DNA of 33,991 nucleotides from Salinivirgaceae bacterium (lineage in GTDB: Bacteria; Bacteroidota; Bacteroidia; Bacteroidales; SZUA-534). The notes below the pieces were generated by a model. That model did no database searches. It saw nothing but the letters and a program-made list of their open reading frames with translations, and had not been told where the DNA came from. A program made the position numbers and the translations under genes. Below are positions 5,514 to 26,106 of this stretch, piece after piece (within the stretch, counting starts at the first letter, position 1; every line of letters begins with the position of its first letter). The stretch covers positions 1-33,991 of the forward strand of contig JAQICC010000180.1 of NCBI GenBank assembly GCA_027858735.1. The letters are read 5' to 3'.

Positions 5514-7235
5514 ATGTACATACAAAGAAATAAGGCAGCAGGTAAAAATGACAAGACATATACTTCAACCCTGCTCTGCAGCAAATATCGACAGGAAGGC
5601 AAAATTAAAACAAAAGTTGAAGCAAATCTTTCACATATGCCATCGGAACTTGTTCTTACTATTGAGAATGTTTTGAAACATGGTAAAGGCGCATTAGTTG
5701 TCGCCAAGGACATTGTTGTTAAAAAATCCATTGATTACGGACTTGCATATATACTAATACACCTACTTAACAAATTGCGCATTAGTCAAACTCTGGAAAA
5801 AATATTACCCCAACAGGCGGCAATTTTAAAAGCAATAATAATTGGCAAAATAATTACAAGAGGAAGTAAACTTGGCATTTTTAATTGGCTAAAACGCAAC
5901 GAAATGATTTGCACAAAACTTGGGTTGGATATTAAAAACCTAAAAGTTGACGATCTGTATTTCGCTTTGGCACAAGCCAACTATTCTCAAAAAGATATAG
6001 AGCGTAAGTGGTTCTTGTACAATAAAGCCAAACATAAAGAAGTTTATTTGTACGATATAACCAGTACTTATTTTGAAGGAACCCAAAACGAACTTGCGGC
6101 ATTTGGCTACAACCGGGACAAGAAAAAAGGGAAGATGCAAATTAACATCGGTTTAATCACCGATAGTGAAGGCTTTCCGTTGAAGATAGAAGTTTTTGAA
6201 GGCAATATTAACGATCACTTAACAGTATTAAACCAAATAAAAAACATTAAAGAAGAGTTTAATACAGAGCAAATTATATTTGTTGGGGATCGGGGCATGA
6301 AAATCCGCTACAATCTGGAAGAGTTGAATGAAGCGGACAGAAAAGGGATTCATTACATAACAGGTTTGACCGTGCAAGAAATAGACAACTTATTAGACCA
6401 GAATGTTATCCAATTAAAATTGTTCAGTAATGATTTGGCAGAGGTGGAATATCAAGGGGAGAGATACGTATTATCTGTAAATAAAGAGCTTCAGGAAAAT
6501 GGTTTGACTTACTTAAAAATAATCCGTGGATTTGTTGATGATGAGATATCAGAAGCAAAAGCATCTTGGGAAAAACGACGAAGGCAAAACATGGAGAATG
6601 TAGAAAAACTTGAAAATGGGCATAAAAACAAAAAACTAGTTACAGGTTTTACCGAAAAAAAACTCGATGGGTTCAAATTGCGCATCGAAAGAATATTGTC
6701 CAAGCGAAAGATGAAAAAGTACTACGAAATTACAGAAATAAGCAATGATAAATTTATAGTAGATTTTAAAGCAGAGAAATTCCAACAATCAAAAAAACTT
6801 GCAGGGAAATATGTTGTCTGTACCAATATACAAAAAGAAGAAATGCCAAAAGAAGAAGTTCGGCAACAATACAAAAACTTACAAAATGTTGAGCACGCAT
6901 TTCGTGACTTCAAGAGCGATAATATCCAGATACGTCCTGTTTATCATCGTAACAAAGCTCAAACTTGCGGACATGTTCTGCTCTCAATGTTTTCTTATGC
7001 CATTATCAAAGAAATGGAGGATAAAATATTTCCTTTCATGAAATTAAGTAACAAAGAAACAAACAATCGATTATCCTTTGGCGACATGCTTGAGGAACTC
7101 AAAGATATAAAGCTTGTAACCTTAGACTTGGGACGAAATGTTAACAGCATTAAGATAACCGAACTTAATGAGATGCAAACACAAATATTTAAACTTTTTA
7201 ATATGAAGAAAAATGACTTAGAAAGAGATTTGTAG
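5514..7235 (+). CDS. IS1634-family DDE transposase
   Basis: Transposase of 573 residues, full length for the family. The DDE triad is visible: D181 in YLYDITSTYFEG, D259 in FVGDRGM, and E460 in NVEHAFRDFKS, a YREK-like signature followed by RPVYH. The N-terminus MYIQRNKAAGKNDKTY with a nearby YRQEGK motif matches the usual IS1634 beginning, which supports the ATG at 5514 although it lies almost on the predicted transcription start. The protein cuts and joins the IS ends at 5357 and 7300. There is no frameshift or internal stop, so it is probably functional. Confidence 0.95.
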   Translation: MYIQRNKAAGKNDKTYTSTLLCSKYRQEGKIKTKVEANLSHMPSELVLTIENVLKHGKGALVVAKDIVVKKSIDYGLAYILIHLLNKLRISQTLEKILPQQAAILKAIIIGKIITRGSKLGIFNWLKRNEMICTKLGLDIKNLKVDDLYFALAQANYSQKDIERKWFLYNKAKHKEVYLYDITSTYFEGTQNELAAFGYNRDKKKGKMQINIGLITDSEGFPLKIEVFEGNINDHLTVLNQIKNIKEEFNTEQIIFVGDRGMKIRYNLEELNEADRKGIHYITGLTVQEIDNLLDQNVIQLKLFSNDLAEVEYQGERYVLSVNKELQENGLTYLKIIRGFVDDEISEAKASWEKRRRQNMENVEKLENGHKNKKLVTGFTEKKLDGFKLRIERILSKRKMKKYYEITEISNDKFIVDFKAEKFQQSKKLAGKYVVCTNIQKEEMPKEEVRQQYKNLQNVEHAFRDFKSDNIQIRPVYHRNKAQTCGHVLLSMFSYAIIKEMEDKIFPFMKLSNKETNNRLSFGDMLEELKDIKLVTLDLGRNVNSIKITELNEMQTQIFKLFNMKKNDLERDL

Positions 7236-7550: not shown

Positions 7551-7573
7551 CAATAGGCATGTGAAGCCTATTG
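7551..7573 (+). promoter_or_regulatory. Leader hairpin upstream of the giant-protein start
   Basis: Perfect 8-bp inverted repeat CAATAGGC / GCCTATTG with a 7-nt loop ATGTGAA, ending 18 nt before the ATG at 7592. No T-tract follows, so it is not a terminator. It could affect translation initiation or mRNA stability. Its position also argues against the in-frame TTG at 7571, inside the stem, as the start codon. Confidence 0.45.
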
Positions 7574-7591: not shown

Positions 7592-10500
7592 ATGAGAATT
7601 GTAGGGAAACCAAAGCTAAAGCTACGCCAAGAAGTTCGCGATTTTATCGATTTATACCAATCATTAGGGCAAAGAGCCGAAAACTTTTTACCAAGGCACA
7701 TTATCGATAATTTAAAATCTTTTACCCGACTCTGCTACGACGAGCCTGATGATCCTATTTTACAGCAGAGAGAGATCGATCGCCAGCTTTTAGAACTTAA
7801 AGAAGCAATACCAGGGTATACCGATGTTTCTTTAATGATTTTTCCTCATGAAGAATCGAAAGCTTTTGAGTACCGTTCAAAGAAAAATGTTTTCCGCCAA
7901 AGGTTAGTATCGCTAATTGATACTGAAGCTATTAATGAAGAAGAACAAAAACAAGCAAAAAATATATTAAATACTCACGACTATTCAGTTGGAACTCCTC
8001 CTGTTACCCAAAGAAACCTAAACTTTAGGTATACCATTTTATTAGGAGATCAGGTTTCTGAATTGCGTAAATTTCGTGAAGTTCTTGGAATTAAAGATGA
8101 AGTTGAAGAAGCGCAGTGGAATTATTTGCTAGACGTATTTGACCAAATGGTGGTTCAAAGTTCGCATTATACTACAGCAGCAGAAAAAACCGACTTCCTA
8201 ACGCGTAGCGAGCAAACCATTAACTTTAAAGGACTAAATGGATTCTTGAAGACAGTGGTAAGTGGAAGCTCTGATACCGCAGTTAAACTAATTAAGGAAG
8301 AATTATTTAATCCAGTAATTGTTCAAGATCTAACCTTTACTGATGAAGAAACTCTTTTTAACACTGTAAAAGAAGATACCACTTCAATTTTTGTAATTCG
8401 CATTCCTCATATGCGTAAAAACTTGTTCAATAACCCAAAGTGGTTCCCACTATTAACACGCATGATTTTTATTGATGCTTCAGATCTTTCTAAAAGCACC
8501 AATACAAGCTTAATTTTCTGCCTACATAATCAAATTGTACAAACACTAAATAAAGTACATACCAAAAAATTGGGTGCATTGGCAAATAGTCAGCTAAACC
8601 TACGCCTAATTCTCGAAAAAGTAAGCACCAAAAACTTAGAGCATTTCAAATCACTTATTCAAGGAAAAATTAATGACTATAACACGGAAATTGACCTACT
8701 TAAAAAGGAACAATTAGGTGCAACAAATAATCTTGAAAAAGATATTGTTCTATTTAAATTCGATGAATTTTCACGTCAAATTTTGAAAGACCGTTATTCT
8801 CTTGAAAAACTTCGTGATTATATCGATATGATTTTGAATTGCACTTCAGCCGAAACTCTTAAAAAACAAAACAAACAATTAATTCAAGAATTTGAAGACC
8901 GAACCAAAAAATATTTCTATTCAGATAACAAAGAAATTGAAATTGCAACCATTGTTGAAGGAGGTGGACGTAATCAAATTAAAACTTATGGTGAATACTT
9001 ATTACAGCGCAAATTAAAGCCTGTTGATAAAGCCATTATCGATCGTTGCAGAGTAATTCTTGATATTATTCCTGATACTTTTCAGCGTACGCTGAAAAAT
9101 CATTTTCATAAAAACTTTGGAATTAACTTATTCCTAGAAAAATATAAAGAGTATTTAATTAAAGCCGAAAACGATGCCGACAACAAAGGTCGTTTCTCAA
9201 ATTTCTTAATTGACTTAGGCATTTTTGAAAAATTCAATGCTCTAAGCAAAAAAGATCAAGATATTGTAAAAGAATTCATTAGCAGTTTATCTAACTTAAA
9301 TAAAACATCAATATCTGACGATGTTCAGATGATTATTCGCGATGTATTGTTTGGCAAAGAAGATAAAACGCTAAAACCATACATTCTTTTCAACAAATAT
9401 TCGTCATGGGAATACATGGATTTATTCCCAACTGATCGTTTCGATATTAACCCATTTGATATGGAGATTGGTATTGATGAAGAAGGACGTATTGATTACG
9501 ATCGCCTTACCACACGATTGGATCGTATGAAAAATACCTTTCAGGTATTCGACGAGTCAGGCAATCTTTGGGACAGTTTCTGTGAAAACTTAACCATTGT
9601 TATTAATGATCCATCGAACCCATCGGGATATTCTGATTTTAACAACCAGAGTATGTTACGCTTCCTAAAATCGGTAAGTACCAGCAAAATTACCTTGTTC
9701 TTAGATGAGGCTTATAACGACTCTGTAAAAATAAGTAGTGAAATTGAGCCAAAATGGCGTACTATTTCAAAATATGTAATGAACAATTTAAACCAGCAAT
9801 ATGCGCGTATTAATTTTGTTTCATCAATATCAACTACCAAGAATTTAGGTGCAACAGGCGACCGTTTAGGTTCACTTGTAGCTTCTCCTGCAAAAAAAGA
9901 TGTGATAGATTTCGCACATAAACAAAATAGTGTAGAAAGTGGTAATACCAATTCACTATTTATGCTTGTAAATATTTTAGAAACTGCTCAACTATCAAAA
10001 TCTATTAAAGATAATTTAGAAGAGCGCTTACCTAAAAATGCATCGCGTAATAAAATTAAACAGCGAATAGAAACCTACATAATTGCTGAAATTGATAGTT
10101 ACCGTCGCAAGCAAAATTCAAAGAGCTCAAAAGAGTTGCTTCGCTTCTCCCCTTTTGAAGGAAGCCCTCTTCACATGTTCTTATTGAACGAATTGGTTTC
10201 GCTTGATAAACTTGATGTACTTGAGTTACCCGATGACTTTAAATACCTTGATGAACCATTCTTTACGTACTATCAAAAACAATTGGTTAAGGATATTAAT
10301 GCGTTCCGTGTAAATAAAAACTTTAGAAACGAAGCCCTATTACGCCTCAAAATTGCTAAAGAAACAGCTACTGAATTATTAAGTGGCGAGGCAGGCGAAC
10401 ATGCTAAGATAATAGCTTCAGACGGCTCTTTCTTATTCAATATTCAGTTGAAAGATTTCTTTAGCTATCAAGATCTTGAGAAATTTACTAAAAAATTAGC

Positions 10501-13500
10501 CGAAGAAAGAGGCATTGCAGTAATTCCATATCAAACGGGCTTCCTGCGATTCTCAATGGGAGATTACCTTGATGGAACTGAAAAAGGATATGATATTTTC
10601 CGCAAAGAATTTAAAAATGCGCTTGAAATAGTATTAAAATATTGGTTGCAATTCTATAATGCGAAAAATGATGTTAAGAATAAAGAATTAAGTAGCGATA
10701 AATTACTCTCAAAACTATTTGAAGCAAAATCGGACAGAATTTTCATGCGCCAGGTTTTGGAAGATTTCCATATGGTTCGTGACTTGATAAAGACCCTAAG
10801 CAACTCATTGCGTATTAATAATGTTTGGACACTATATCATGCATCAGCAGGAATGAGTGGGGTAAGCATTAATACAATTGGAAGCTCGAAAAACTCAGTT
10901 ATAGAGTTTTCAGAAGAGGTTGGAAAATGTACCGACTTAACAAGCTTTATTCGCAGTGTTGCATTTACTTCGATTTATGAAAATATGCTGCCTCAGATTT
11001 ACAAAAATATTCCTATGATCAAGCACCTTGATTTTGGAAAAGTTTTGGCACGCTATGGTAAATCAACCTTGCTTAAATATATTACTGCAAAACTTAATTA
11101 CCAACCAACCGATTATATTCTGGATGCCCCTGAGGACGATGTTATAATAGCTGAAATTTTAATTGAAATGGAAAGAATTCTATTCTCGCCTGCCAAAACA
11201 AAAGTTTTAGCAATAAACAGTACCGGAAAACATGCTGATGATATTGCTCGCCTAGAAGGTGTTAATATGGTATTACGTAAGCATATTCAAGAGCTTATGT
11301 TGCATTTCAACCTTCCATTTGAAAACGATCCGGCTGAACCATCATTAATGGAATTGGTTAATAAAGGTCTTGAAAAATTTAAATGGATAACCGGCAAAAA
11401 AACATCGAACATTGATGCGGCCTATTTACTAAAACATTTATCTATAAATATTTACGATGAATTTATAGCTAAGGACATAATTGTTGGCTCAAAACTTTAC
11501 GGCTCAATTGAAAAACTTATTAACGATAAAGTTTTAGATCCTAAAATTTCATCGGATGAAAAAATCAAGCGTCTATATTTACTCAGCCGAAAAGAGTTTT
11601 TCCATAATAAAGTAGTAGCATTGGCTGAACGATTTAACAGTAAGCTAGTGGCTCTTGATGACATGGAGATAGAAGCAATTATTGGTGAATTTTTACACAA
11701 ATCGTTACCTGCCGAAATTGAGGATATCTGGAATCAAGTCGTTGAATTAGGTAAATTGAATATTGATGGCGAAAAACTTCATCGTGAGGTACGTTGGTTT
11801 ACTTTGTTCTTAATTAATTTAATGAACCAAACCAAAAGCAATGAACATTACGACAGATATACCCATTCAATTATTCATTTAACCGAGGCTGAATTTGCAC
11901 AGCAAAACTCAGCTATAAACGAAATGGTTCAACATGGTATTTCGGTGCATCAGAATTATGACATTAAAAACCATCCTCTTGAAAAATATAATAATGGAAG
12001 CTTAAAATGGCTTGCTAGTATTATGAGAGAATGCGGCGTTGTTGGAACTGAAAAGAATGTTCAAACACATACAAGAATTGCAACCGATGCTAAAAAACGT
12101 GAATATGCTTTCTACAGAATAGATCGTTTGGTTAATGATAAAGAAAAAGCTGCAAAAGAAAAGGCTCTTGCACTTTCTGAAGAAAACTCAAACGAATACA
12201 TTAAAATACTTGATACGCGTCCTTTAGGTTCTTTCTTTGTAAACCGTCTGGCAAAATTTGCTGCCAATATGGATATGGGAGACTACCGTTGTAAAATTTT
12301 CAATGGTGGATTGGTGAACGAACTATTTATTTATCACAAAAGCTATATGAAATATATGGCTGATAACTATCGTTTGCTTGATATTCAAGATGCTTCACTT
12401 GAAGATGCTAAGAATTTTGTACCCGACACTATTTGTTTTTATGGTGCTCCAACAAAAGTAGTATCGTTCCCTCGTGTTGGATACTTTGATATTAACGGAC
12501 CAAATGGCAAAATTAAAACTGTTGTTACACCTCTTACCAATAAAGGTGATTACTACGGTAACATTAAAAAACCTCGTTTAACAATTATGAACGAAAAAGT
12601 GAAAGATATGGGTGGTATCCCGGTTCACGGTTCAATGTTTGCTGTTGAAGAGGAAGATGGAGCCATGTTTGTTGTCCAAATTGCTGGTGATAGCGGTGTT
12701 GGTAAATCAGAAATGGTTGCTGCCATGATGCTAAAATGGATGAAGAATAACCTTACTGGTGTTCGTTCATTAAAAATGATTGCCGGCGATATGTTCCATG
12801 TATTCCCTGACTCAGAGGGTAACCTTTACGGTATTGGAACAGAAGTTGGAGACTTTAGCCGTATAACCGATTTTGATCCAGATTATATTAAGTTTTACAA
12901 CTCATTATTTGAAAGTAGTGCCGATAGTAACGTTGAAGACTTAAATTCGCGTTCAACAATAAGTGGCCTTTGCGATGTAAGCATGCCATTTAAAATTGAT
13001 ATAATGCTAACCGCAAGCAACTTTGCTCGTGAGGAAGCTGGTATTACACGGTACGAGAATCCTGAGAATTTTATATTGTATCGCGATTCACATGGTGAGC
13101 GCAGAGAAAAAGCTACCAGTGGTGATAATCCACATTTCCAGCGAACCCTGATGCGTTATCCAAGCGATAAAAACATAGTTGATGTGCTTGACAAACATGG
13201 TAGCTACATTGACGATATGGTTGATTGGGAAAAAGATGATTTTACAGGTGTATTCTATTTGTGTTCATCCTACAAAATGATTGATAAAATTGATCTTAAT
13301 GAAGTAATCAATAAAATATTTGTTGAAAAAGAATTTGCTAAAAATGGTGAGAAATATACCATTAAAAGTGTAACCTTTGACATTATTAAAAACCGATTTA
13401 TTGCACTTGTTGCTAATGAAGAAAACGAAATTAGTACTGTTATTGACCGTGGTTTATTTAATCAAATTTTCAATGCATTAGCGAGTACTCCTGGTGGTCA

Positions 13501-14263
13501 ACCATTTATCGATGAAGGTGGTGAAAATGATGGAAAGAGACATTTGGTTGAAGTTCTAAAATCGGGCGAGGGTAAAAAAATTCAGTTAGGTATTCTAAGT
13601 ACCGATATTGGCCGCACTGGTAAAGAAATTACAGGACCTCAAATGGCTGCCGAAGATATGCGCAAATTAATTCGTGAAGTTCGTATTGCCAGGCCTGAGA
13701 TTAACCAGAATAAAAACATTGTTAAAAAACAAATTTTAGCTTGCTACAAGCACATATTCGATGGAGAATATGGCAACTCTGAGATTTTCCGTTACAATTT
13801 CTGGTTATGGCAAATGGAGCAAATGCGCAAAGCTAAATTCGTTAGAATTGATGATAAAAATAAACACGTTGATTTATCGAAACTTAAAGGATTTAAGCCT
13901 GAAGCCAAGGACAAAGTATTTAGTCCGTTGATTGTGACACCAAACATGAACATTGAGCTTTCTAGTTATGGTGAAACTTATTTACAGCTTATGAATCTGC
14001 CTGACATTGCTGAATTTGCTTTGGAATTTTCTGAAATTGCAGAAAACCTTTTTATAGCCGAAAGTTATAGTCAGGAAACCATAGTTAATAATATGATTAT
14101 TCAGTTACTGTTAATGAATGGCTATATTTTAAAAGAAGATTTAACACGCGGAAGTATTTTTGAGAAAGTTAATAGAGAAACCATTGCAGCTGCTAAATAT
14201 GCTGCACTTGAAATATTAAACCGTAAAAAAAACGGTAAAAAAGACCCAACTATCACAAAATAG
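7592..14263 (+). CDS. Giant protein: PLP-aminotransferase-like plus HprK/PEPCK-like P-loop domains
   Basis: Unrecognised cytosolic protein of about 2223 residues with no signal peptide or membrane segment. Numbering is from the ATG at 7592, chosen over an in-frame TTG at 7571 that lies inside a hairpin. Residues 1 to about 600 are mostly helical and unassigned. About 600-1000 looks like a fold-type I aminotransferase: NDPSNPSG (672-679), LDEAY with D705, SISTTKNLGATGDRLG with candidate Schiff-base Lys750 and phosphate-binding Arg758, and RFSMG with candidate carboxylate-binding Arg986. After another unassigned stretch, VHGSMF (from about 1678) leads into GDSGVGKSE (1699-1707, Lys1705), the P-loop form of HPr kinase and related PEPCK-fold kinases. 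IAGDMFHV (D1733) is a possible metal-binding site. The gene has its own promoter region and terminator. Reaction and substrates are unknown; the domain calls rest on motifs only. Confidence 0.75.
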   Translation: MRIVGKPKLKLRQEVRDFIDLYQSLGQRAENFLPRHIIDNLKSFTRLCYDEPDDPILQQREIDRQLLELKEAIPGYTDVSLMIFPHEESKAFEYRSKKNVFRQRLVSLIDTEAINEEEQKQAKNILNTHDYSVGTPPVTQRNLNFRYTILLGDQVSELRKFREVLGIKDEVEEAQWNYLLDVFDQMVVQSSHYTTAAEKTDFLTRSEQTINFKGLNGFLKTVVSGSSDTAVKLIKEELFNPVIVQDLTFTDEETLFNTVKEDTTSIFVIRIPHMRKNLFNNPKWFPLLTRMIFIDASDLSKSTNTSLIFCLHNQIVQTLNKVHTKKLGALANSQLNLRLILEKVSTKNLEHFKSLIQGKINDYNTEIDLLKKEQLGATNNLEKDIVLFKFDEFSRQILKDRYSLEKLRDYIDMILNCTSAETLKKQNKQLIQEFEDRTKKYFYSDNKEIEIATIVEGGGRNQIKTYGEYLLQRKLKPVDKAIIDRCRVILDIIPDTFQRTLKNHFHKNFGINLFLEKYKEYLIKAENDADNKGRFSNFLIDLGIFEKFNALSKKDQDIVKEFISSLSNLNKTSISDDVQMIIRDVLFGKEDKTLKPYILFNKYSSWEYMDLFPTDRFDINPFDMEIGIDEEGRIDYDRLTTRLDRMKNTFQVFDESGNLWDSFCENLTIVINDPSNPSGYSDFNNQSMLRFLKSVSTSKITLFLDEAYNDSVKISSEIEPKWRTISKYVMNNLNQQYARINFVSSISTTKNLGATGDRLGSLVASPAKKDVIDFAHKQNSVESGNTNSLFMLVNILETAQLSKSIKDNLEERLPKNASRNKIKQRIETYIIAEIDSYRRKQNSKSSKELLRFSPFEGSPLHMFLLNELVSLDKLDVLELPDDFKYLDEPFFTYYQKQLVKDINAFRVNKNFRNEALLRLKIAKETATELLSGEAGEHAKIIASDGSFLFNIQLKDFFSYQDLEKFTKKLAEERGIAVIPYQTGFLRFSMGDYLDGTEKGYDIFRKEFKNALEIVLKYWLQFYNAKNDVKNKELSSDKLLSKLFEAKSDRIFMRQVLEDFHMVRDLIKTLSNSLRINNVWTLYHASAGMSGVSINTIGSSKNSVIEFSEEVGKCTDLTSFIRSVAFTSIYENMLPQIYKNIPMIKHLDFGKVLARYGKSTLLKYITAKLNYQPTDYILDAPEDDVIIAEILIEMERILFSPAKTKVLAINSTGKHADDIARLEGVNMVLRKHIQELMLHFNLPFENDPAEPSLMELVNKGLEKFKWITGKKTSNIDAAYLLKHLSINIYDEFIAKDIIVGSKLYGSIEKLINDKVLDPKISSDEKIKRLYLLSRKEFFHNKVVALAERFNSKLVALDDMEIEAIIGEFLHKSLPAEIEDIWNQVVELGKLNIDGEKLHREVRWFTLFLINLMNQTKSNEHYDRYTHSIIHLTEAEFAQQNSAINEMVQHGISVHQNYDIKNHPLEKYNNGSLKWLASIMRECGVVGTEKNVQTHTRIATDAKKREYAFYRIDRLVNDKEKAAKEKALALSEENSNEYIKILDTRPLGSFFVNRLAKFAANMDMGDYRCKIFNGGLVNELFIYHKSYMKYMADNYRLLDIQDASLEDAKNFVPDTICFYGAPTKVVSFPRVGYFDINGPNGKIKTVVTPLTNKGDYYGNIKKPRLTIMNEKVKDMGGIPVHGSMFAVEEEDGAMFVVQIAGDSGVGKSEMVAAMMLKWMKNNLTGVRSLKMIAGDMFHVFPDSEGNLYGIGTEVGDFSRITDFDPDYIKFYNSLFESSADSNVEDLNSRSTISGLCDVSMPFKIDIMLTASNFAREEAGITRYENPENFILYRDSHGERREKATSGDNPHFQRTLMRYPSDKNIVDVLDKHGSYIDDMVDWEKDDFTGVFYLCSSYKMIDKIDLNEVINKIFVEKEFAKNGEKYTIKSVTFDIIKNRFIALVANEENEISTVIDRGLFNQIFNALASTPGGQPFIDEGGENDGKRHLVEVLKSGEGKKIQLGILSTDIGRTGKEITGPQMAAEDMRKLIREVRIARPEINQNKNIVKKQILACYKHIFDGEYGNSEIFRYNFWLWQMEQMRKAKFVRIDDKNKHVDLSKLKGFKPEAKDKVFSPLIVTPNMNIELSSYGETYLQLMNLPDIAEFALEFSEIAENLFIAESYSQETIVNNMIIQLLLMNGYILKEDLTRGSIFEKVNRETIAAAKYAALEILNRKKNGKKDPTITK

Positions 14264-16311: not shown

Positions 16312-17181
16312 TTATTTAGCTTTTTTAGCTTTAGCTAATTTTTTCCAATCCTTTTTCGTTAATCCTTCAGGCGCTTTATCGCTAATCATATGATAGCTAA
16401 AGTAATAAAGCTTAGCGTCGGATGCGCCAACAATTGTGTTATAACAACGGGCTTTGCGCTTTGAACCTTCAGGCCCTACTTTATGAACAAAAACTACATC
16501 TTCATTATGACTATCAATCGCTTCTTGAACCTCTTCTTTTGTTTTTAATTCAACTTTACCAGGATACATAGCCTTTATCTCCTTTATAGAGTTAAAGTTA
16601 TTTGCCAAGTCTGATTTAGTAACATAAAGAGTTTTTTCTTTTACATCGGCTGTCATATTTTTATAGTAGTATTTTAAAATATTTTTCGAATTTAATTCCG
16701 GATTTTCTTGTGTTAATTTAATATGACTCTGCAAAAAACGGCATAACATACCAAGTTTATACGCATAAAAATCTTCTTCAATACCTGAATAACAAATAGG
16801 AACTTGAGCAATATCAGGCATCTGATTTACAAATTCATAATCGCCACCTAGCTGCACACATAAATAGTCATACTTTTGCTTGGTTTTATCGCGTTCAAAA
16901 AACATTTTGTTCACAATTAAAAACGATTTATTCGGATCTAGCCTAGCTTCTTCAAATTCTTCTGACGAAAAAGTAACAAACTCAAAAGGTGTCAAATCCC
17001 AATGCTTTTCAACAGTCTCTTTAATTAAATAATTGTACTGTAACATGGGGTTGTTTTCAAGAACCACATAAGTAGTCGTTTTCATAAATTGGTCAAGTTG
17101 TTCTGGTGTTCCCACCGATGTTTGAGCTTGACTAACCCAAAATCCTAATCCCAATATAAAGGCGATAAAAATTCTTTTCAT
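16312..17181 (-). CDS. Secreted protein of unknown function
   Basis: Exported protein of 289 residues with a clear signal peptide (MKRIFIAFILGLGFWVSQAQ). The mature part has no recognised domain. It includes two similarly placed segments reading LVNKMFFERDKTKQKYDYL and LYVTKSDLANNFNSIKEI, a mid-region rich in Tyr, and a very basic tail (KKDWKKLAKAKKAK). The phrases TYVVLENNPMLQYNYLIKE and VELKTKEEVQEAIDSHNED hint at an alpha/beta fold. It is encoded 63 bp downstream of another secreted unknown on the same strand and the two probably share a transcript. Location is likely periplasm or outer membrane; function unknown. Confidence 0.75.
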   Translation of the reverse strand: MKRIFIAFILGLGFWVSQAQTSVGTPEQLDQFMKTTTYVVLENNPMLQYNYLIKETVEKHWDLTPFEFVTFSSEEFEEARLDPNKSFLIVNKMFFERDKTKQKYDYLCVQLGGDYEFVNQMPDIAQVPICYSGIEEDFYAYKLGMLCRFLQSHIKLTQENPELNSKNILKYYYKNMTADVKEKTLYVTKSDLANNFNSIKEIKAMYPGKVELKTKEEVQEAIDSHNEDVVFVHKVGPEGSKRKARCYNTIVGASDAKLYYFSYHMISDKAPEGLTKKDWKKLAKAKKAK

Positions 17182-17244: not shown

Positions 17245-17904
17245 TTAATTAATGGGAATATATAAAGGATGTTTTTCATTAAATTTTCTCAAATAGAGAA
17301 ATTTCATCTGCTTTTTCTTTTTCTTTCTCAGCGCATTATACGCATCATATAATTCAGTATCAACCATTAAAAGTAAAAGAACATTGGCAACTGTATATTC
17401 AAATATATCACCCGTTCTAAAATTCATAACAAATTGGTAAATCTCAGTTCGCGATGTGGTTGTTGGTACATTGTAGTAGCCGTATCCATAATTGGGATTG
17501 TTATATCTATCTTCATAAACCGTAACCGTTGCAATAAAATGACATGCACTCCCCATAACAGGAATTCTATTAAAATCATCGCCCCAATTGATGTAAACTG
17601 AACCACGCCTACAAAATCCCCAAAGCCTATTCACATCTATAATCTTTTTCATACCAAATTGGTCATAATAAGTAACCTTTTCCTCTGATAAAAGCATATC
17701 GAAAAAATCAAAACCTGCTTTGTTATATTTTGAAACTATTCTTTTAATAGGAATAGGACTATTATTTAATAGCTGTTGATGCGAAAGGTAAATACCATCA
17801 TTAAACCTGAAACCAGGTGAATATTTAACAAGCTTAACACTGTCTACTTGTGAGAGTGCAAGTTTTGCTAGTAAAATAAATGTTATTATAAAAAGATGTC
17901 TCAA
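17245..17904 (-). CDS. Secreted protein of unknown function, TTG start
   Basis: Exported protein of 219 residues with a signal peptide MRHLFIITFILLAKLALSQ. An in-frame TGA lies three codons upstream and there is no earlier ATG, so translation must begin at the TTG at 17904 if the signal peptide is to be complete. The mature protein contains YNNPNYGYGYYN, a Tyr/Asn-rich stretch, and a Lys-rich segment RKKKKKQMKF near the end. The hydrophobic stretch VANVLLLLMV is too short and embedded to be a convincing membrane span. The next gene (17181-16312) is also secreted and follows after 63 bp, suggesting one operon. No family recognised. Confidence 0.7.
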   Translation of the reverse strand: MRHLFIITFILLAKLALSQVDSVKLVKYSPGFRFNDGIYLSHQQLLNNSPIPIKRIVSKYNKAGFDFFDMLLSEEKVTYYDQFGMKKIIDVNRLWGFCRRGSVYINWGDDFNRIPVMGSACHFIATVTVYEDRYNNPNYGYGYYNVPTTTSRTEIYQFVMNFRTGDIFEYTVANVLLLLMVDTELYDAYNALRKKKKKQMKFLYLRKFNEKHPLYIPIN

Positions 17905-23638: not shown

Positions 23639-25201
23639 TTATACCTTATGAATTACTTTTCTTACCACATCAATTACCGTTCCATCAACCCACTTAATTG
23701 CCGCAACTACTTCTTCTGAAATTCTCATTTTTTCCATAGGCCCACAAATAGTTTCAGCTTCAACTTTTAATTCCTTAATCGTCTTTATCGGCAATTTTGA
23801 ATCCTTCAATATGTCAATTAAATCTTTCCGTAATGGATTAATTGCAATACCCCTCTCAGTTACTATCACATCAATTAACTCACCAGGACCACAAATAGTT
23901 GTAACTTCATCTTTTACCACTGGAATCCTATCTCGGAATAAAGGCACCGGTAAAATAACAGTTTTAGAAAATAAACAATTCTGCCAGCCGCCAATACCAT
24001 GCAATAGGTATCCATCGGAATGGGTTACAACATTTGCATTGAAATTTACATCAACTTCAGTTGCTCCCAATATCGCTATATCAACCATGCCTGCAAAATT
24101 ACCTTTACCATGATAATTATAACTGGTAAATGGACTTGTCCAAGTATGGTTTGAATTCACTCTCATTGAGCGCACTCCCTCCAAATCAAATGTTTGACCA
24201 TCCAAAATATATTGAATCAATCCTTCCTCCAATGCATCAACCAAATACTTGTTACTACCACCTCTAGCAAAACGGGCTTTAATACCTTTTCTTCTCATTA
24301 TATCAGCAAAAAAATTACCAATGGATAAAGCAGTACCTCCTGCCCCCGCCTGAAAAGAAAAACCATCCTTTATTAGCCCTGCTTCCTCACAAAATTTGGC
24401 TGTCATCTCTGCAATTAATAATCTATCAGGGCTTTTGGTTATTTGCGTGGTACCTGAAACAATTTTTTCAGGTATTCCTATTTTATCAACCTTTACTGTA
24501 AAATCAACATTATTCCCTTGTATTTGCCATGGTACACACGGAAATGGTACCATATTATCGGTTACCACTATAACTTTATCCGCATACTCTGAGTCTGCCA
24601 AGGCAAAACCCAGCAATCCACTTGCCGAAGGACCATACAAACCATTAGCATTTCCAAAAGAATCGGCACAACCAGCACCAATTACTGCAATATCAATAAT
24701 CACCTCACCATCTTGTACCGCTTGATAGCGACCACCGTGAGATCGCAATATTGCTGTTTTTTTCATTTTTCCTTCGGAGCAAAATTTACCTAAAACTCCA
24801 TTCATACTACCTTCAATATGGCTTATGGTGCCATCTTCAAGGTATTGAATTAAATGCTCGTGACATGGAAATGATGCCGATGGAAACCAACGTAAATTTT
24901 TTATTCCCATTTTTTTTGCAATATCAAATATCTCATTGGCCAATAAATCACCATTCCTAAAATGATGATGAGTTGAAATTGTCATTCCATCTTTTAATCC
25001 GCACTTTTTCAAGGCTTCACTTAAGGATTCAACCAATTTATTCCCATCAGAATTAAAATCAACACAAGAACTTATATAAGGGGCATGCTTTTTTCCATGT
25101 GGTTTATACTTACCAATACCCTTAAAAGGTATAGCTTTCACCCCATTTATAGTGGTTGGAACCATTCGACCCACTGCATTTATTTTTTGTTCAATAGTCA
25201 T
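23639..25201 (-). CDS. citF: Citrate lyase alpha subunit (citrate CoA-transferase)
   Basis: Cytosolic protein of 520 residues, full length for CitF. In citrate lyase the alpha subunit transfers the acyl-carrier-protein thioester from acetate to citrate before the beta subunit cleaves citryl-ACP to oxaloacetate. Sequence support: the GMTISTHHHFRNGD segment near 92-105, LRSHGGRYQAVQDGEV, GCADSFGNANGLYGPSA, FQAGAGGTALSIG, ARGGSNKYLVDALEEG and the C-terminal TICGPGELIDVIVTERGIAINPLR, all typical of the CitF CoA-transferase family. The ATG at 25201 follows a TATATTTG element at 25246-25253 on the minus strand. No citE, citD, citC, citX or citG lies in the window, which is unusual for a gene normally in a citCDEFXG cluster. 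It may pair with distant partners or act as a stand-alone CoA-transferase. Confidence 0.92.
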   Translation of the reverse strand: MTIEQKINAVGRMVPTTINGVKAIPFKGIGKYKPHGKKHAPYISSCVDFNSDGNKLVESLSEALKKCGLKDGMTISTHHHFRNGDLLANEIFDIAKKMGIKNLRWFPSASFPCHEHLIQYLEDGTISHIEGSMNGVLGKFCSEGKMKKTAILRSHGGRYQAVQDGEVIIDIAVIGAGCADSFGNANGLYGPSASGLLGFALADSEYADKVIVVTDNMVPFPCVPWQIQGNNVDFTVKVDKIGIPEKIVSGTTQITKSPDRLLIAEMTAKFCEEAGLIKDGFSFQAGAGGTALSIGNFFADIMRRKGIKARFARGGSNKYLVDALEEGLIQYILDGQTFDLEGVRSMRVNSNHTWTSPFTSYNYHGKGNFAGMVDIAILGATEVDVNFNANVVTHSDGYLLHGIGGWQNCLFSKTVILPVPLFRDRIPVVKDEVTTICGPGELIDVIVTERGIAINPLRKDLIDILKDSKLPIKTIKELKVEAETICGPMEKMRISEEVVAAIKWVDGTVIDVVRKVIHKV

Positions 25202-25410: not shown

Positions 25411-26106
25411 ATGTTCAACACTGATCTTGCACCTGTTCAGGTAATGTTTCTCAAAGCTCCTAAGAAAATTGGGATTGATGATGTATTTAGCATCATTTTA
25501 AGAGACTTGACTTTAAGGCGTATACTTAATGTTGATAAAATTAACTGTTTTCCAAACGACCGTTCACGAAAAACTCAAAAGTATTTCATGCTCGTTAGAG
25601 GCGAAAATTACGAAGGTTATGAACCCAAAGAATTTGAAAAAGGATTTATTTTACCATTTTTAGAAAGAAATCAGGTTCAAACTAAGACTCTAACCAATTT
25701 TATTTTAAGAAAATACAGTACACCTAGTGGTTTTATTGATGATAAAATTTTTCAACCTTTACATAATGAACATTATATAAGTAGTATACCCATTGTAAAA
25801 ACTTTTGGCTATTATAAGGTTTCAAATAAAGGAATGGAAATTGTTTCTGAACTCAATGAATTTATTGCAGGACAAGAAGAAAAACTTACTGGTTTAATCG
25901 ATGGTGATAAAGGTGAATTTATAAATGCCCTTGAAGAAACTGGTGTTTACATATTCCATTTTGAAAAAAATAATCCAGTATTATATAAAAACTTAATCTC
26001 AATGGTTAAAAGAGTATATGTTGGTAAACCATTTGGGCCTCAACTCGACTTAAGGCATTTTATGCAAGCCATAAATTTAGATTTAAGCTACTTTGTGGAA
26101 CATTAA
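25411..26106 (+). CDS. Cytosolic protein of unknown function
   Basis: Protein of 231 residues, no signal peptide or membrane segment, not recognised. The N-terminal half begins FNTDLAPVQVMFLKAPKKIGIDDVFSIILRD and has the hydrophobic-helix spacing of a winged-helix or similar small helical domain: helices around 19-37, then NPKEFEKGF-like acidic/aromatic stretches. The middle has YYKVSNKGMEIVSELNEFI, which looks like the wing and last helix of a winged-helix fold. The C-terminus ends DLRHFMQAINLDLSYFVEH. It stands alone between the divergent citF gene and a shared terminator with the convergent acyl-CoA synthetase gene. A DNA-binding or regulatory role is only a guess; function unknown. Confidence 0.75.
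   Translation: MFNTDLAPVQVMFLKAPKKIGIDDVFSIILRDLTLRRILNVDKINCFPNDRSRKTQKYFMLVRGENYEGYEPKEFEKGFILPFLERNQVQTKTLTNFILRKYSTPSGFIDDKIFQPLHNEHYISSIPIVKTFGYYKVSNKGMEIVSELNEFIAGQEEKLTGLIDGDKGEFINALEETGVYIFHFEKNNPVLYKNLISMVKRVYVGKPFGPQLDLRHFMQAINLDLSYFVEH

Follow-up and report, generated by a model that had tools for sequence, protein, structure and literature searches.

The window, that is, the whole stretch of 33,991 nucleotides analysed here, comprises positions 1–33991 of contig 59 (JAQICC010000180.1) of the Salinivirgaceae bacterium assembly GCA_027858735.1, a draft genome of 6.0 Mb in 452 contigs. Its forward strand carries a gene (7592..14263) for a protein of 2223 residues, hereafter the giant, in which a fold-type I pyridoxal 5'-phosphate (PLP) aminotransferase domain is fused to a domain resembling phosphoenolpyruvate carboxykinase (PEPCK). 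The open frame extends from 7571, where the first codon is TTG, to 14263 and contains no internal stop; since M1 is invariant in 46 aligned rows, the alignment indicates that the biological start is the ATG at 7592. These 46 rows, to which all invariance counts below refer, are the window and 45 of 53 related loci, the incomplete loci (L016, L024, L029, L044, L052, L054, L055 and L056) having been excluded; the tree and the conservation profile were calculated from 48 rows, with L029 and L008 added. The encoded protein consists of the aminotransferase domain with its large helical inserts (residues ~77–1025, 7820..10666), a mostly helical connector (residues 1026–1449, 10667..11938) that contains the least conserved part (1281–1400), the PEPCK-like two-lobe domain (residues ~1450–2035, 11939..13696) and a C-terminal tail (residues 2036–2223, 13697..14260) without a Pfam match.

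The 53 loci were obtained in a scan of GTDB genomes that detects close relatives only. As 45 of them are complete, the description of the gene in a first-pass annotation as one uninterrupted frame of 2223 residues is borne out in public genomes. Full-length relatives are 51–80% identical to the giant over the whole length, and the record labels, which are the depositors' own, read Bacteroidales, Alistipes, Odoribacter, Rikenellaceae, Marinilabiliales, Flavobacteriia, other Bacteroidetes and, in one case, Ignavibacteria. Compared with five relatives, the gene shows 0.76–0.89 synonymous differences per site (saturated) and 0.13–0.14 non-synonymous differences, a pattern indicative of purifying selection, and in the 32 relatives measured the first 440 residues are constant in length. 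Considering the full-length identity, this stable length and the low non-synonymous change, the gene is patchy in occurrence but tightly conserved. The domain motifs are, on the same comparisons, evidently not chance matches, because the Pfam model PF00155 scores above its cut-off and the same architecture recurs in public genomes.

PF00155 matched residues 633–808 (E = 1.9e-9); its score, 37.6 bits, exceeds the cut-off of 19.7. The structure was predicted as two separate models, residues 1–1200 and 1024–2223. For the first, the AlphaFold2 model had a mean predicted local distance difference test score (pLDDT) of 80.8 and a predicted template-modelling score (pTM) of 0.80; its best match by VIA was 2zc0_A (Z 14.8, 377 residues, 3.4 Å), and the 50 matches listed are PLP fold-I enzymes, 49 by title and the fiftieth, a GpsB-DapX model, presumably so. 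An aminotransferase domain had been proposed at first pass and is upheld by these matches. They start at residues ~72–128 (mostly 77–128) and end near 1016–1035. Since a fold of ~400 residues is thus spread over ~900–950 residues, the model suggests that the helical stretches are inserts within one aminotransferase domain, not separate domains; of the helical regions left unassigned in the first-pass annotation, those around the first domain now appear largely to be such inserts. Six helical pieces scanned against Pfam gave nothing above cut-off, the best match being ribosomal S17e (E = 0.0041). A Protein Data Bank (PDB) sequence search with the whole protein gave no match at E ≤ 1, and a search with the aminotransferase profile matched three PLP enzymes. 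Sub-threshold NCBIfam matches of the PLP core included GntC (E = 1.7e-5), tyrosine transaminase (E = 0.00083) and CobD (E = 0.0011). The idea that residues 1–440 represent a degenerate second aminotransferase copy, prompted by the resemblance of HTKKLGALANSQLNL to TTKNLGATGDRLG, was rejected for now, with profile comparisons at E = 0.46 and 0.42 and residues 1–345 reaching E = 0.44 at best against ordinary aminotransferases.

The giant was compared using hhalign, whose E-values here refer to single comparisons, with five aminotransferases of the same genome, selected for their length and the presence of an NP[TS]G motif out of 20 frames taken at the match centre. The alignment (probability 95.5, E = 1.5e-8) brought the NPSG motif, DEAY and the K750 loop into register. 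On this basis N676 in the loop NDPSNPSG (residues 672–679, 9605..9628) is the predicted PLP-ring asparagine, DEAY (residues 705–708, 9704..9715) provides the predicted PLP aspartate and tyrosine, and TKNLGATGDR (residues 749–758, 9836..9865) contains K750, the predicted Schiff-base lysine, and R758, the predicted phosphate arginine. R986 (10547..10549) is the predicted α-carboxylate arginine of the small domain. All 46 rows have Y193, N672, N676, D705, Y708, K750, R758 and R986, and also an additional motif within the aminotransferase domain, EGGGR (residues 456–460, 8957..8971), that lies outside the recognised ones. The first-pass annotation had placed D705 (in DEAY), K750, R758 and R986 at exactly these positions, and had named loss of K750 or of the P-loop lysine K1705 in homologues as evidence against its reading; both lysines occur in all 46 rows.

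The second model (residues 1024–2223; pLDDT 75.6, pTM 0.65) matched PEPCK in all 50 Foldseek matches listed (E = 8.4e-5 to 9.8e-4) and in all 50 VIA matches listed, the best being 9e32 (Z 12.6, 352 residues, 4.5 Å, 12% identity). Model residues ~427–1012, corresponding to protein residues ~1450–2035, align onto PEPCK residues ~17–549, indicating that both PEPCK lobes are present. Judging from the model, the domain is divergent, its root-mean-square deviation from PEPCK being high. A family of stand-alone PEPCK-like proteins connects the two: hhalign gave E = 1.7e-23 for the giant against this family and E = 1e-6 for the family against PEPCK_ATP. In a PDB search with the PEPCK-like profile there were nine weak matches, the best at E = 0.073; among them, PEPCK of T. 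thermophilus (E = 0.65) aligned across the KK and HG motifs and the start of the P-loop. Against the PADLOC models of anti-phage defence proteins the giant gave one sub-threshold match, to mad8 around the P-loop (E = 0.0092, 13.5 bits), in which no individual stretch passed.

Several motifs in this half align with those of PEPCK. YYGNIKK (residues 1654–1660, 12551..12571) corresponds to the PEPCK signature Y-x-G-x-x-K-K, which in the Escherichia coli enzyme comprises Y207, G209, K212 and K213. H1679-G1680 (12626..12631) occupies the position of the metal-binding histidine, GDSGVGKSE (residues 1699–1707, 12686..12712) is a P-loop with K1705, and GDM (residues 1732–1734, 12785..12793) places D1733 where PEPCK has the aspartate of GDD. 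In the hhalign register K213, H232, D269 and the P-loop lysine of PEPCK pair with K1660, H1679, D1733 and K1705, respectively, and Y1654, G1656, K1659, K1660, H1679, K1705 and D1733 are invariant in the 46 rows. The P-loop and the VHGSMF that precedes it were correctly read at first pass, where they were taken as HPr-kinase-like or PEPCK-like; the superfamily stands and its motifs are intact, but the assignment to HPr kinase does not hold, since the fold is that of two-lobe PEPCK. The HPr-kinase models TIGR00679 and PF07475 were not among the giant's matches at E ≤ 10, a search in which the HMMER filters discard most weak matches.

The stand-alone family comprises proteins of 569–587 residues (loci L010, L013, L067 and L089–L098). 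Proteins matching only the PEPCK-like half occur in 8 of the 393 genomes of the window's order, one or two in each, and the giant is absent from all eight. Twelve examples from the order have 576–587 residues and are 28–32% identical to the giant over ~230–290 residues; a plasmid copy from Limosilactobacillus fermentum (AYP99509.1, 569 residues, 27.6% identity) is annotated as phosphoenolpyruvate carboxykinase. None of the eight genomes has PEPCK_GTP, and six lack PEPCK_ATP as well, compared with 11 of 60 relatives without a PEPCK_ATP match, three of which have PEPCK_GTP. The figure of six in eight stems from few families and counts against placing much weight on it: four of the six share one family and the two genomes of the fourth family retain PEPCK, so that the independent evidence amounts to three families of four. 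From this distribution the stand-alone proteins may substitute for PEPCK, and the family may be a candidate for a further, unrecognised type of nucleotide-dependent PEPCK. Its members also matched HPr-kinase models weakly (Hpr_kinase_C, E = 0.053 and 0.13; TIGR00679, E = 0.033 and 0.1). Designed pentatricopeptide-repeat proteins, the top PDB matches of a stand-alone relative (from E = 8.8e-6), were dismissed as chance, no stretch passing alone.

Of 393 genomes surveyed in the window's order, 22 (counting the window's own) contain a full or nearly full giant; one of these giants is split across two contigs and one ends at a contig edge, and G036 has in addition to these 22 a fragment at a contig end. 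This survey, which scored at most two candidates per genome, turned up entire giants, terminal fragments and PEPCK-like proteins of the stand-alone kind, and no isolated aminotransferase half. Among 60 near relatives (own included), eight have a full-length giant, G002 and G036 have short pieces of its 3' end (that of G002 interrupted by a stop codon) and G037 has stand-alone PEPCK-like proteins only. On contig 143 of G004 (locus L009), a genome of the window's own family, a 121-codon remnant of the 5' end, 73% identical and containing stop codons, suggests gene loss. Across the phylum, 4 of 395 genomes match the giant, own included, one of them (G357) weakly and partially, and 2 of 296 match the PEPCK-like profile, again with the window's own. 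The giant was not found in IMG/VR, in the phage set or in plasmids, the latter giving only the stand-alone PEPCK-like relative.

The genomic context was surveyed in 55 loci (the window, L008 and L014–L066) with flanks of very unequal length. In nine of them, all of one clade, a gene for asparagine synthase B (asnB; NCBIfam E = 2.3e-282 for the L019 copy) lies directly upstream on the same strand, truncated by the contig end in L018, L020 and L024. The gap to the giant, measured between longest frames, is 43–307 bp, or 634 bp in L024, where the frame of the giant is broken; the giants of the seven asnB loci with full-length genes are 71–85% identical. Beyond asnB, a further gene is common to four loci and not to the others. 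A Rid-family gene (family assigned from the L019 copy) lies within 500 bp downstream on the opposite strand in six loci of the same clade. Clustering of the flanking genes of the 55 loci revealed no conserved operon besides asnB in this clade. In the window the giant is flanked by genes for a DDE transposase and a thioredoxin, and nothing points to an operon. The transposase gene (5514–7235, forward strand), which lies between a SusC/SusD-like pair and the giant, stops 356 bp short of the latter. A hairpin with an 8-bp stem (7551–7573) is located directly 5' of the giant's start codon in the window; it is absent from 45 other upstream stretches, four of which carry unrelated 7-bp stems, and no Rfam element, riboswitches included, was found in the window and four loci. 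Elsewhere in the window are a gene for the citrate lyase alpha subunit CitF (23639–25201, reverse strand, E = 4e-139), with beta and gamma subunits not recognised by eye among the neighbouring frames, and three frames of 219–289 residues without a Pfam match at E ≤ 0.001 (16312–17181 and 17245–17904, reverse strand; 25411–26106, forward strand). Citrate lyase also produces oxaloacetate.

Set beside known systems, the giant is a new architecture assembled from known folds. With the ATP- and GTP-type PEPCKs (EC 4.1.1.49 and 4.1.1.32) it shares the two-lobe fold and the Tyr/Gly/Lys-Lys, His, P-loop Lys and Asp positions, but it falls below the Pfam cut-off, does not clearly keep the position of Arg65 and is fused to an aminotransferase. 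The stand-alone proteins carry the same motif string as far as a terminal GP..AA; unlike the giant, they lack the aminotransferase half and its insert of ~100–125 residues near 1845–1970, and have an N-terminal region of their own. Ordinary fold-type I aminotransferases (PF00155) have the same fold and full set of PLP residues in ~400 rather than ~950 residues, and are not joined to a PEPCK-like half. HPr kinase/phosphorylase has the P-loop wording and preceding HG in common with the giant, which differs from it in giving no model match and in having a PEPCK N-lobe instead. A parallel in design is the bifunctional L-threonine kinase/CobD of Methanosarcina, in which a kinase and a fold-I PLP enzyme likewise form one chain. 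The PPi-type PEPCK catalyses the same class of reaction and is set apart by description, not by sequence comparison, the giant having a nucleotide P-loop; it is described as unrelated to the ATP and GTP enzymes in a passage of a review (PMC8100219). Among the papers listed by full-text searches of the open literature, none dealt with the fusion of a PEPCK-type domain to an aminotransferase.

The predicted folds of both halves are thus well supported, and the gene is intact, its motifs invariant and the fusion conserved. That two active sites whose chemistry is known retain their motifs and stay together in one chain suggests consecutive reactions. We tentatively favour a bifunctional enzyme that combines transamination with PEPCK-type phosphoryl transfer, most simply along aspartate, oxaloacetate and phosphoenolpyruvate (PEP); we infer that both halves are catalytic, and likewise which nucleotide and substrates they use, the channelling and the direction. 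The N-terminal half (~77–1025) would be a working aminotransferase that converts an amino acid into its 2-oxo acid or the reverse: K750 would hold PLP, D705, N676 and Y708 would contact the ring, R758 the phosphate and R986 the carboxylate. The C-terminal half (~1450–2035), with K1705 in the P-loop and K1660, H1679 and D1733 as metal ligands, would convert a 2-oxo acid with a nucleoside triphosphate into a phospho-enol compound and CO2, or catalyse the reverse. Oxaloacetate is the metabolite common to the commonest members of the two families and asparagine synthase uses aspartate, which is why we propose aspartate ↔ oxaloacetate ↔ PEP + CO2, in either direction, as the simplest pairing. Oxaloacetate is usually regarded as scarce and unstable, and the covalent link between the halves could keep it local. 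In anaerobic Bacteroidales PEPCK can work in the carboxylating direction; a possible net reaction would be PEP + CO2 + ADP + glutamate → aspartate + 2-oxoglutarate + ATP, and in the clade with an adjoining asnB the aspartate might feed asparagine synthase. The earlier suggestion of an enzyme that acts on an amino-acid-like group and also phosphorylates a substrate comes near to this bifunctional scheme. Overall, the first-pass observation is confirmed and its interpretation partly supported.

Several observations weigh against the PEPCK assignment or the substrates proposed. The giant scores 11.6 bits with Pfam PEPCK_ATP (PF01293) against a cut-off of 26.5, and 16.1 bits with NCBIfam PRK09344.1-3 against 369. 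Its direct hhalign match to PEPCK_ATP (probability 56–58, E = 1.1e-4 and 1e-4), obtained with comparison sets of longest frames from which L075 (755 residues, too long for PEPCK) had been removed after the first run, depends on the settings, other options and one unsuitable extra sequence giving probability 0.2 and E = 0.2. The comparison with PEPCK_GTP is collinear around the P-loop, though not significant (E = 0.089). In PEPCK, Arg65 is the arginine for the oxaloacetate carboxylate; at this position, in an alignment made by eye (TRIATDAKKRE against TGIFTGRSPKDK), the giant and its relatives have alanine in 38 rows and serine in eight, with R1495, K1501, K1502 and R1503 beside it invariant. 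For Arg333, the hhalign alignment leaves the counterpart uncertain by one residue, with R1820 nearest. The fold matches of the first half span alanine-glyoxylate, aminoadipate, kynurenine and aspartate aminotransferases, and its substrate specificity is therefore not readable from them. Ordinary PEPCK_ATP is kept in 20 of 25 giant carriers, and three of the five assemblies without it are only 82–87% complete; the giant would thus be dispensable for bulk PEPCK, and the notion that it replaces the ordinary enzyme was rejected. The asnB link is confined to one clade and is not a tight operon. Finally, a 392-residue frame on contig 3 of G357 (L070) that weakly resembles residues 802–930 of the giant (31%, E = 5.0e-5) may represent a separate protein related to a section of the giant's first half.

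Nearly as likely as the aspartate–oxaloacetate–PEP scheme is a giant whose halves are both active on other substrates. The second would then be a kinase or decarboxylating kinase acting on a different 2-oxo or amino acid, and its phosphorylated product would undergo transamination, decarboxylation or elimination in the PLP half. L-threonine kinase plus CobD provides the precedent. The lack of a clear Arg65 counterpart beside a different invariant basic patch (R1495, K1501, K1502), the GntC and CobD matches of the PLP core, the ordinary PEPCK co-occurring in most carriers and the Rid-family gene would all be in keeping with such substrates; the invariance of the PEPCK-typical Y-x-G-x-x-K-K ... 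H ... D set speaks for PEPCK chemistry instead, and among the flanking genes, which were clustered but not annotated gene by gene, only asnB and the Rid gene were conspicuous.

A regulated single enzyme, with catalysis in one half and a regulator, ligand-binding or structural, in the other, is unlikely. PLP folds can serve in regulators, as those of the MocR type show (PMC6677901), and the protein is disproportionately large for two active sites, but every catalytic residue checked, in either half, is the same in 46 of 46 rows, which would be unexpected in a degenerate half. We consider a protein-modifying or sensor kinase of the HPr-kinase type very improbable: the P-loop has HPr-kinase wording and the stand-alone relatives score weakly with HPr-kinase models, but a PEPCK N-lobe precedes the P-loop lobe and the giant itself yielded no such model in the filtered search described above. 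The related first-pass suggestion of a sensor kinase with a PLP-fold binding domain found no backing, no sensor or receiver domain appearing in Pfam scans of the whole protein and six pieces. That the gene is an annotation or assembly accident, or decaying or mobile, can practically be dismissed despite the nearby transposase and the remnant in G004, as length and order are the same in 46 rows, non-synonymous change is low and searches of IMG/VR, the phage set and plasmids gave no giant.

Returning to the bifunctional scheme, its most specific form is possible though rather doubtful: a hitherto undescribed enzyme of ~250 kDa in Alistipes, Odoribacter and other Bacteroidales that would convert PEP, CO2 and glutamate straight into aspartate, or run back from aspartate to PEP, with oxaloacetate passed between the halves via the helical scaffold. 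The PEP–pyruvate–oxaloacetate node is among the best mapped in metabolism, and none of the papers listed in the searches deals with such a fusion at it. If both halves work, the giant would be a test case for oxaloacetate channelling, and, if the scheme is true, the annotation of aspartate and CO2 assimilation would change in gut bacteria, Alistipes and Odoribacter among them.

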